Part shown: positions 18,590 to 22,506 of the stretch, one piece after another | How positions within the stretch are numbered: position 1 is the stretch's first letter | Layout of the letters: the number at the start of each line of letters is the position of its first letter | Source: a virus | IMG/VR virus record: IMGVR_UViG_3300025132_000012 | Location: 1 to 37,060 of that record | DNA: 37,060 bases | Reading direction: 5' to 3' (one strand) | Program-made: the position numbers and the translations under genes | Notes under the pieces: model-generated | What the model was told of the DNA's origin: nothing | Seen by the model: only the letters and a program-made list of their open reading frames with translations | The model's database searches: none

Positions 18590-18820
18590 TTAAAATTTAG
18601 GTTTTGTAGGAATATTTATAGAAGGACCTGTCATATCAGGTAAAGCATTATCTAAAACTTTAGGCATCATTCCTTGAACATTACCTAAAACTTCATTCAT
18701 TATTTTTGTTTTAAATTGATCTGAAGTTACATATTTATATCCAAAATATGCTCCTCCACTGATTGATGCTACCATCAGAAAAGAAACAATACTTAGAATA
18801 TTTGCTATTTTTTGAAACAT
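18590..18820 (-). CDS. Single-pass membrane protein (76 aa), cyanophage-type
   Basis: Starting at MFQKIANIL this is a 76-residue protein with one transmembrane helix (about 8-28, ILSIVSFLMVASISGGAYFG) followed by KYVTSDQFKTKIMNEVLGNV and a Pro-rich tail (GPSINIPTKPKF). An upstream ATG at 18862 adds 14 residues, but the internal start looks more like remembered cyanophage relatives beginning MFEKIAN. It precedes the 210-aa gene by 3 bp, so the two probably work together at the host envelope. Confidence 0.7.
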   Translation of the reverse strand: MFQKIANILSIVSFLMVASISGGAYFGYKYVTSDQFKTKIMNEVLGNVQGMMPKVLDNALPDMTGPSINIPTKPKF

Positions 18821-18950
18821 GATTAAAGAAGCATTTTTAAAAGCACTAATGCCTGTCACCATTATAACTTTTTGTGGTTTATGTGCATTGGCTCCTTTAT
18901 ATCTGACCCTTGGAGTTATGACAAGGCAGATGCAAGATAAATCTAATTAA
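18819..18950 (+). CDS. Possible plus-strand membrane micro-gene (43 aa)
   Basis: The ATG shares its bases with the minus-strand ATG of the 76-aa gene (CATG), and the frame runs 43 codons to TAA at 18948-18950, which overlaps the end of the next minus gene. The product begins MIKEAFLKALMPVTIITFCG and goes on LCALAPLYLTLGVMTRQ: one strong hydrophobic helix and a polar tail. It exactly fills a gap on the opposite strand. No ribosome binding site is seen, so this is a candidate only. Confidence 0.4.
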   Translation: MIKEAFLKALMPVTIITFCGLCALAPLYLTLGVMTRQMQDKSN

Positions 18951-19692: not shown

Positions 19693-22506
19693 TTATCTTG
19701 CACGAGCGTATTTAAATGGTGCTTCTGCAAATGCTAAATAAATTATAGTTTGACCTGATTCATTATTTCCAGATACTTGTCTTAATTTAAATCCGTTTGA
19801 AAGAAAATCCATTAAATCAAGATCACCTTCAGCATTATTTTCATTTGCTAATAAATAAGCGTCTGCAACATTAAACGTATCTCTTTTATTATCTAATATT
19901 ACCCAATCTGTACTGGCTTGAGTTGCTGGTTTCCAAAGTATAAAACTTGGTCTAAAACCTGTGTAAACAAATGTACCATCAGTTGATCCGTTGCCTCTAT
20001 ATGACCCAAACTTGCTATACCCTGCTACGGAACTAAACACATAAGCAATCATAGTTGCATTTGTAGCTCCTCCTACAAATGCACCATCTGTACCAAATAC
20101 AGAAGAAGTAGGAGGCACTATACTGTAATCTTGAGCATTTAAAGCAGTCACATTATAATTTAATTGTAAATAATCATTAGTTCCATCTACAACATCATAA
20201 AAAACAAACCAACTTGTTGCTACTGATCTACTTTTAACTATTACAATATCAGGTTTTACACCTAAACCATGCCCAACAGTTTTATATGTGTTAGCACCTG
20301 ATGTCCATTTAACTATTGAAAAACCTGCAGTTGCATTTACTTTAGTAACAGATTGTAAGTTACCATCAAAATTACTTGATCCAAGTGTTGAGTTTGTATT
20401 GACCTGTCCTCCCATTCCACTATGAGAAGAACAATAATAATAAAGAGTAGGAGCAGAAGCAGCTACAATTATTGTTACCTGTGTTGAGCTATTATGTGTA
20501 ACCCCTGTTGTATATTCACTTCCACCACCATGCGTACCATCTGCTGTTGTAGAAAACTTAAATGGGTGTCCTGATGGATAATTAAAAATATAAGTACCAC
20601 CTTCTGCAAGATCAAGAGTTACAGCAGATGTTCCATAACCATCAAATCTATATTTATTACCAGAATCATCAACAACTGTTACTGTATAAGTTTTGCCATC
20701 TGTCTCCCCTGCATTCCAGTTCCATGCGACATAACCATTTCCATTAGCATTCTGTCCTCCTTGGTTAGCATCTTTTGCAATAGAAAATCCATTATTATCA
20801 AAACTTGCTAATGAATATGTTGCATCTTCAACTTGGGCTTCATTAGGATATAAAACACCACCTGATGTTCCTCGAACAGTATCATGTCCTTGATGATGAT
20901 AAGATGCTTCTCTATTTTTCAGCCAAATCCAATCTGGAGCAAAATCAAGTCCAGTTATGGCACGAGCAGAGGTAGCTCCATTACCTGTATAAAGCAAAGT
21001 ATCAAAATGTTTATTAGGTAGCAGTATTGTTGGGTCGGGTAAGTTTGCTGAACATAATGCTTTTGCTCCTGTAGGAACTGCATATTTAAAATCTCCAAAA
21101 CCATTTGCATCTGTGTTTCCACCTGCAGTTGTCTGCCCAGCAAATGTGCTATCTTGTCCAAAGTTTGCATGAATTTGAACACTACTTCCACCACTAGCAG
21201 ATGAAAGTATGAATGTAGCAAATCCATCATTACTACCAGTATCAGTTGTAAGAAAACTATCTCCTAAAGTTACTGCTGATGTCGGACTTGATTCATCAAA
21301 ATTTCCTGACCCGTCAGCCCATTGTCCGTTTTTTGAAAAATAAACTACAGGTGTTCCAGCGTCCATGTTTAAATAAACACCAATGACATCATATTGTGAC
21401 ACTGAAGATCCATGAGTTGTATTAGTTTCAGAACCAGCAGTTCTTTTATATACTTCTCCGTTGAGAGTAAGAAGATAAGCGTATCTTGTATTATTTGCTG
21501 TTGTACTTATATTAACTTGATAGGGACCAACACCAATAAAATTATAGCCATCACTGCCTTTTTGCATAAATTCTGCATACCACTTACCAGAATTTACTAA
21601 CATAGGTGCAAATGCTTGCCTATTTAAATTTCTTGCAGAGCCACTTGAACCTGTAGTTAATTGTAAATTTACATCATAAAAACTAGCACCACTTGAAAAT
21701 GGTGTACCCATCATTTGTAAAGTTGGGAAATTATTTGTGGGTGTATCTTTTAAACGATCTCCAACTACTATAGCTGCATTTGGTGTCCAGTTATTGCCAT
21801 TACCACTTGAATCTGTGCCTAATGCTGAAACTGAAGAATTATCTGCAAATTTTAAATAAAATCCTTGACTACCATAACTTCCTGTATATTCTTTAGGAAC
21901 CCATTGACCTGTTATTGCATTTGTCTCTCCAAAATATGATGGGTCATAAGCATAACCATCAAGAAAATTTACTTCTGCCATTAATCCATTAAATGCTTGT
22001 GAGCTTATGCCATCTCCAATAGTGTGATTTAAAGTAGTGTTTATTGCTGTTTCATAATTTTCTGAAATACTTATATTATTACTTAAATCAGTGAGTCTTT
22101 CTCCATTAGAATATAATATAGCTCTATCATCAGCCGTACTATCTGTAGAATCATATTTAACTACAATATGATACCAAGCACTAGGGTCTCTAAATAATTT
22201 ATTAGCCTGTCTAATGTGATTAGTAGCTTGTGATAATCTAAGTTTATTTCCATAAAGATTAATAGTGGTGTATTCACTATTTCCGCTATAGCCAGAGTTA
22301 ACTACAGAAAAAAGAAAATTCTCGCCTGTATCACCAGTTGTTTTAATCCAAGCACTCCAAGTCCATGTTCGTCTATTACCTGCACTACCAGGAGTTCTAG
22401 TTAATTTATGAGCATCACCTCTAACAAATCTTAAGCTATGATCTATTTGATAAGCACTATCAGCAGCACCAGAGGCTCCTATTCTTATTGCATCATAAAA
22501 ACCCAT
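19693..22506 (-). CDS. Large tail fibre: LamG, SPRY and cupredoxin-like domains
   Basis: A 937-residue fibre. After an attachment segment (1-25), residues 27-200 are a LamG/concanavalin-type lectin domain (TWTWSAWIKTTGD; AEVNFLDGYAYDPS). About 305-450 is a SPRY-like domain (GKWYAEFM; YDVIGVYLNMD; VVYFSKNGQW). Repeats of a LYTGNG....RAITGLDFAPDWIW kind follow. Residues 606-705 form a cupredoxin-like domain with H647, C692, H695 and M698. The C-terminal part (about 725-937, FVYTGFRPSFILWKPA; YLAFAEAPFKYARAR) is the end module common to such fibres. It likely binds the host surface. The gene overlaps the next fibre by one base. Confidence 0.85.
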   Translation of the reverse strand: MGFYDAIRIGASGAADSAYQIDHSLRFVRGDAHKLTRTPGSAGNRRTWTWSAWIKTTGDTGENFLFSVVNSGYSGNSEYTTINLYGNKLRLSQATNHIRQANKLFRDPSAWYHIVVKYDSTDSTADDRAILYSNGERLTDLSNNISISENYETAINTTLNHTIGDGISSQAFNGLMAEVNFLDGYAYDPSYFGETNAITGQWVPKEYTGSYGSQGFYLKFADNSSVSALGTDSSGNGNNWTPNAAIVVGDRLKDTPTNNFPTLQMMGTPFSSGASFYDVNLQLTTGSSGSARNLNRQAFAPMLVNSGKWYAEFMQKGSDGYNFIGVGPYQVNISTTANNTRYAYLLTLNGEVYKRTAGSETNTTHGSSVSQYDVIGVYLNMDAGTPVVYFSKNGQWADGSGNFDESSPTSAVTLGDSFLTTDTGSNDGFATFILSSASGGSSVQIHANFGQDSTFAGQTTAGGNTDANGFGDFKYAVPTGAKALCSANLPDPTILLPNKHFDTLLYTGNGATSARAITGLDFAPDWIWLKNREASYHHQGHDTVRGTSGGVLYPNEAQVEDATYSLASFDNNGFSIAKDANQGGQNANGNGYVAWNWNAGETDGKTYTVTVVDDSGNKYRFDGYGTSAVTLDLAEGGTYIFNYPSGHPFKFSTTADGTHGGGSEYTTGVTHNSSTQVTIIVAASAPTLYYYCSSHSGMGGQVNTNSTLGSSNFDGNLQSVTKVNATAGFSIVKWTSGANTYKTVGHGLGVKPDIVIVKSRSVATSWFVFYDVVDGTNDYLQLNYNVTALNAQDYSIVPPTSSVFGTDGAFVGGATNATMIAYVFSSVAGYSKFGSYRGNGSTDGTFVYTGFRPSFILWKPATQASTDWVILDNKRDTFNVADAYLLANENNAEGDLDLMDFLSNGFKLRQVSGNNESGQTIIYLAFAEAPFKYARAR

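Follow-up and report, generated by a model that had tools for sequence, protein, structure and literature searches.

Does the tail fibre of a marine virus carry a copper protein? The question arises from a 37-kb virus record (IMG/VR record IMGVR_UViG_3300025132_000012), all 37,060 nucleotides of which were analyzed and are referred to here as the window. The initial annotation of the window described a plastocyanin-like segment, complete with a type 1 set of copper ligands, inside a 937-aa fibre protein. The head and tail genes of this virus share ~77% nucleotide identity with the Prochlorococcus MED4 siphoviruses MED4-117, MED4-184, and P-HS2, and these matches make a Prochlorococcus-type host likely. 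The gene encoding the 937-aa protein is downstream of a homologue of the tip attachment protein J and of the tape-measure gene. Its product, which has no signal peptide, matches phrog_19943 (virion structural, E 1.5e-169) and phrog_24898 (tail fiber, E 1.7e-65). We infer that it is a tail fibre from these families and from its position beside the tail genes, not from proteomics. A short ORF near the fibre gene (18593-18862, minus strand) matches phrog_568, annotated as plasmid stability, and both MED4-117 and MED4-184 have a gene with the same annotation in the region that matches the window.

To place the segment within the fibre, we compared it with relatives of the surrounding sequence (Table 1). 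The region scored 312.9 bits against DUF7483 (PF24299), above the curated cut-off of 27, and the Pfam match was split in two, with profile positions of about 2-100 before the segment and 106-330 after it. In the Pelagibacter phages HTVC201P and HTVC011P and in the Methylophilales phage MEP301 the two DUF7483 stretches are adjacent or nearly so, and the same arrangement was observed in Roseobacter phage CRP-811, cyanophage SS120-1, and Synechococcus phage RN05-S. Since the two halves are contiguous in these other phages, residues 603 to 708 (approximately) form, on sequence comparison, a separate unit inserted at a domain boundary in the DUF7483 region. The location first given for the domain, 20392-20691, was therefore right but slightly short, as the relatives lacking the insert put it at 20383-20700. 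In a wider survey of viral contigs, 66 DUF7483 matches had the insert and 57 did not, and some long proteins (for example, in contigs L022 and L033) contained copies of both kinds.

Table 1. Features of the fibre gene, in window coordinates.
Feature	Position	Strand	Basis
937-aa tail fibre / virion structural protein gene	19693..22506	minus	ORF and PHROG matches
SPRY-like stretch, residues 324-396	21319..21537	minus	PF00622, E 0.0049, under its cut-off
DUF7483 first part, residues about 490-602	20701..21039	minus	PF24299 from profile position 2; matches to insert-less relatives
Cupredoxin-like insert, residues about 603-708	20383..20700	minus	Boundaries from insert-less DUF7483 relatives; AF2 fold
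H647 codon, candidate first copper ligand (SGHPFKFS)	20566..20568	minus	Aligns with the ligand His of pseudoazurin 3tu6; 1 deviation in 339
C692 codon, candidate copper ligand (YYYCSSHSGM)	20431..20433	minus	1 deviation in 339
H695 codon, candidate copper ligand	20422..20424	minus	1 deviation in 339
M698 codon, candidate axial ligand	20413..20415	minus	2 deviations in 339, one of them Gln
DUF7483 second part, residues about 709-930	19715..20382	minus	PF24299 profile positions 106-330

DUF7483 itself (window 19715-21039) resembles about three repeats of roughly 110 residues each. Alignment of the third repeat with the first is significant (z 5.9 against shuffles) and that of the second is weak; the insert is placed between repeats one and two.

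Structure prediction placed the insert among the cupredoxins. The AF2 model of the domain, made with an 81-row alignment, is a beta-sandwich of nine strands (pLDDT 87, pTM 0.81) that include strands 41-45, 52-55, 91-95, and 102-109 in domain numbering, where the candidate ligands are residues 50, 95, 98, and 101. H647 is in the loop just before strand 52-55, C692 is at the end of strand 91-95, and H695 and M698 are in the loop preceding strand 102-109. The initial annotation had allowed that the predicted ligands might lie far apart; at the level of topology they do not, as the model puts them in the canonical cupredoxin loops. A larger model covering residues 487-937 (451 residues, pLDDT 90, pTM 0.91) again had the insert as a cupredoxin unit. 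All 16 of the Foldseek matches at E <= 0.001 were cupredoxins. With VIA-align, the best matches were nitrite reductase 2dv6 (Z 9.1, 2.4 A over 91 residues) and rusticyanin 2cal (Z 9.0, 2.8 A over 93 residues), and every listed row was a cupredoxin-fold protein, laccases and coagulation factor VIII included. These Z values are moderate, and the case for a predicted cupredoxin is made by the uniformity of the matches listed and the sequence profile taken together.

That profile, built from 81 phage homologues, was searched against PDB sequences, and 31 of the 34 listed matches were cupredoxins or copper enzymes with cupredoxin domains. The E-values were modest, from 0.00063 up, and part of this score stems from the motif itself, because the alignment (A2) was filtered for the ligands H, C, and H and so keeps them by construction. 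In the HMMER alignment with amicyanin the Cys, His, and Met align while the first His is two residues off the amicyanin ligand; with pseudoazurin the His, Cys, and His are in register and its Met is not. A natural homologue (L176:5077-5424) passed the curated cut-off of the Pfam Copper-bind model, which was not built from A2 (PF00127; 22.9 versus 21.2 bits). The window domain scored 13.0 bits against the same cut-off, and PF00127 is weak for remote members. For a second Pfam family, PF25489 (At5g54830-like), 26 of the 81 members matched at E <= 1, and the best phage score of 23.7 bits was below the curated cut-off of 27 bits. A single-sequence phmmer search of PDB sequences returned chance matches alone, and a search of NCBIfam returned no match. 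In BFVD, relatives of the domain are filed as uncharacterized, immunoglobulin domain, YHYH domain, or beta-sandwich. Three further BFVD entries (A0A481Z6J5, A0A481Z7Q7, and A0A481YVH3) matched in fold; these are small beta-sandwich proteins from uncultured relatives of Pithovirus and Marseillevirus.

H647, C692, H695, and M698 were found exactly at the positions in the fibre where they had been reported. The comparison with the plastocyanin spacing, C-x2-H-x4-M, was mistaken: the spacing here is C-x2-H-x2-M, two residues shorter and as in amicyanin, and the candidate site is most likely a short loop of the amicyanin type. To assess conservation, we turned to an iterative search, whose 411 aligned rows amount to about 28 effective sequences at 62% identity, and restricted the count to the 339 rows spanning both ligand regions. 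A2 was left out of this analysis; of the scan patterns, some include C, H, or M, and most do not. The H/C/H/M set was complete in 336 of the 339 rows, the exceptions being HCHQ, HCHS, and NAQM. The four ligand columns were the least variable of the 112 columns in the domain, followed by Y690 with 7 deviations and G668 with 8. These statistics rule out a chance motif. Profile search, fold prediction, and ligand conservation thus support what had been proposed: this structural protein of a marine phage has a cupredoxin-like domain with a set of type 1 copper ligands.

One possibility is that the insert is a neutral beta-sandwich spacer with a relict site that holds no metal. After all, the fibre is variable and the insert falls on one of its domain boundaries, and the relatives that do without it are isolated, viable phages. 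This is nevertheless highly improbable, as relict ligands would be expected to go one at a time, whereas the ligands are kept in nearly every copy counted although identity to the window domain drops to 25-40%. The remaining 72 of the 411 rows are mostly the second domain of gp10-like proteins from T4-like cyanophages. The first His is missing from 71 of them and none aligns through the whole ligand loop, and they still keep fold residues such as L633, G636, Y639, F641, and P686. In this second domain it looks as if the whole site was lost rather than drifting piecemeal, probably in one or few events given that the loss is mainly in one gene lineage. The large gp10-like proteins (L087 3313-6306 and ORFs in L096-L175) contain two copies of the domain, one with the four ligands and one without.

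Our preferred reading is that residues 603-708 are a true cupredoxin-family domain, an extra bead in DUF7483, that most likely binds copper through H647, C692, H695, and M698, and on balance we consider this probable. Judged from sequence and model, it is quite likely that the domain binds a metal of some kind and reasonably probable that the metal is copper; any specific use of the site is less likely than metal or copper binding itself. Sites made up of Cys, His, and Met are able to bind several metals. It could be argued, then, that the same fold and site hold a different physiological metal (for example, Zn, Fe, or Ni) that merely stiffens the bead, and fibres with other metals are known, such as iron in T4 gp37 (PMC11705849). 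However, this is unlikely since the axial Met is conserved and, like the C-x2-H-x2-M loop, is a typical feature of type 1 copper sites, and the relatives found by the PDB profile search are copper proteins.

The expectation that similar segments occur in structural proteins of marine phages was borne out in both viral contigs and annotated phage records. Scanning of viral contigs identified at least 598 confirmed relatives of the domain. In an annotated phage collection, matches were found in 189 records when the window domain was the query and in 347 when a divergent member was used. By organism name, nearly all of these were cyanophages, and the few others were Pelagibacter, Methylophilales, and Actinomycetia phages; outside the cyanophages, the domain is carried by some phages of SAR11, OM43, and Actinomycetia. 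The proteins that carry it are gp9-type baseplate wedge/tail-fibre connectors, large gp10-like proteins, proximal tail fibres, and other structural proteins. Profile searches of whole genomes detected the domain in P-SSM2, S-SM1, P-TIM68, P-SCSP2, Melnitz-3, HTVC028P, Baldr, S-TIM5, RN05-S, and 023Pt_psg01 and did not find it in T4, Syn5, P-SSP7, P-HS2, HTVC201P, HTVC011P, SS120-1, CRP-811, or MEP301. S-PM2, a phage with light-dependent adsorption, gave a weak and partial match, and for this reason a link between the domain and light-dependent adsorption was dropped. The gene for the domain-bearing virion protein of cyanophage S-TIM5 (L085 3149-4606) is next to the portal gene, whereas in other phages the setting is a fibre or baseplate.

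The recurrence of the domain at fibre-baseplate joints, in gp9-type connectors and gp10-like proteins as well as in fibres, would suit a redox or metal switch. The site would be reduced or empty in the cytoplasm and loaded or oxidised outside, and the resulting change in the fibre/baseplate joint would make the particle competent only after release. On the other hand, many related phages do not have the domain, and loading or reduction usually leaves a cupredoxin fold little changed. We regard such a switch as improbable.

Homologues are not confined to viruses. Marine single-cell genomes and MAGs encode the domain as well, in proteins that have a Gly-rich N-terminus and a lipobox-like Cys; the carriers are SAR86, OM182, K189A, Woeseiaceae, and others. 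A SAR86 lipoprotein of 161 aa (L313 5806-6291) contains little beyond the cupredoxin-like domain, and larger bacterial carriers have cadherin-like repeats. In the Cellvibrionales carriers the N-terminus resembles a signal peptide and the domain is present in two or three tandem copies. One of the Cellvibrionales proteins (L306 3127-6645), with three tandem copies, a signal-peptide-like start, and a hydrophobic C-terminal tail, is encoded directly after a gene for a DsbD-like thiol-disulfide membrane protein (named by eye). The one Pelagibacteraceae-labelled match examined (L256) has a T7-type tail-fibre N-terminus and is therefore phage-like. The first His is absent from all of the scan patterns used for bacteria, yet it is present in 86 of 86 aligned bacterial copies. 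That the cellular proteins are apparently exported is in keeping with a copper protein. No direction of transfer between phages and bacteria was evident in a tree of 79 short sequences.

It could be speculated that in many aquatic phages, above all cyanophages, the fibres and baseplates contain working blue-copper sites that serve to attach the virion to its host or to trigger attachment, and that these would parallel the surface lipoproteins of marine bacteria that have the same domain. We consider this possible but doubtful. A more specific proposal is a copper Trojan horse, where copper-loaded beads mimic or engage copper-acquiring surface proteins of the host and these serve as receptors. 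Marine bacteria do have exported surface proteins with the same domain, and a similar idea has been put forward for iron in the fibres of marine phages (PMC11705849); however, the bacterial copies are mainly from SAR86 and other Gammaproteobacteria, which are not the usual hosts of these phages, and no receptor is known. This makes the proposal very improbable.

If, as we prefer, the insert is a copper-binding cupredoxin domain, the following sequence of events can be envisaged. Assembly of the fibre, which lacks a signal peptide, takes place in the cytoplasm, and there the site would be empty or hold Cu(I). Copper might then be acquired on lysis or from sea water, outside the reducing cytoplasm. 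Within the virion, the domain would serve as a bead stabilised by its metal, and its exposed His edge may contribute to the contact surface for the host envelope or for a neighboring tail protein. A docking role in the receptor-facing part of the fibre is suggested by position in the protein alone. The predicted plastocyanin-like fold and the near-invariant ligand set together suggest that the virus particles carry copper.

In the open-access literature searched, the occurrence of this domain in virions was undescribed, and no paper on DUF7483 was found. The fold family is known; what is new, as far as the literature was searched, is a widespread virion module with a complete putative copper site. 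If the site is loaded, very abundant phage particles of the ocean would be copper proteins, with a bearing on attachment, particle stability, and copper speciation in sea water. The cupredoxin assignment, if true, would also name a domain that is now under unspecific labels in viral databases.

Among known systems, amicyanin, pseudoazurin, and plastocyanin (PF00127) are like the fibre domain in having a predicted or known place for His, Cys-x2-His, and Met in the same loops of a beta-sandwich, which for the fibre domain is predicted, and the amicyanin loop CTPHPFM is the same length as that of the fibre. The fibre domain has a Pro after the first His, where Asn is usual in small cupredoxins. 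In contrast to these small type 1 copper proteins, it belongs to a virion protein without a signal peptide, is inserted in another domain, and has no known redox partner. Rusticyanin and the N-terminal cupredoxin domain of a three-domain nitrite reductase, which match the fibre domain best in structure (Z about 9), belong to electron carriers or enzymes of respiratory chains and share 20-26% identity with it in structural alignments. The HxH iron-binding tail fibres of T4 (gp37) and Alteromonas phage R22Y are proposed metal sites in phage fibres (PMC11705849) and are unlike the cupredoxin-like domain in fold and ligands. Assignment of the window fibre to that class was rejected, as no His-x-His motif occurs in all 937 residues. 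The lipoproteins of SAR86, OM182, K189A, and Woeseiaceae and the Cellvibrionales proteins are direct homologues with all four ligands but differ in being cellular, membrane-anchored or secreted, and often joined to cadherin-like repeats. The gp9-type connectors of T4-like cyanophages likewise have a homologous domain with all four ligands; it is C-terminal, in a different carrier protein and position, and shares about 35% identity with the window domain.
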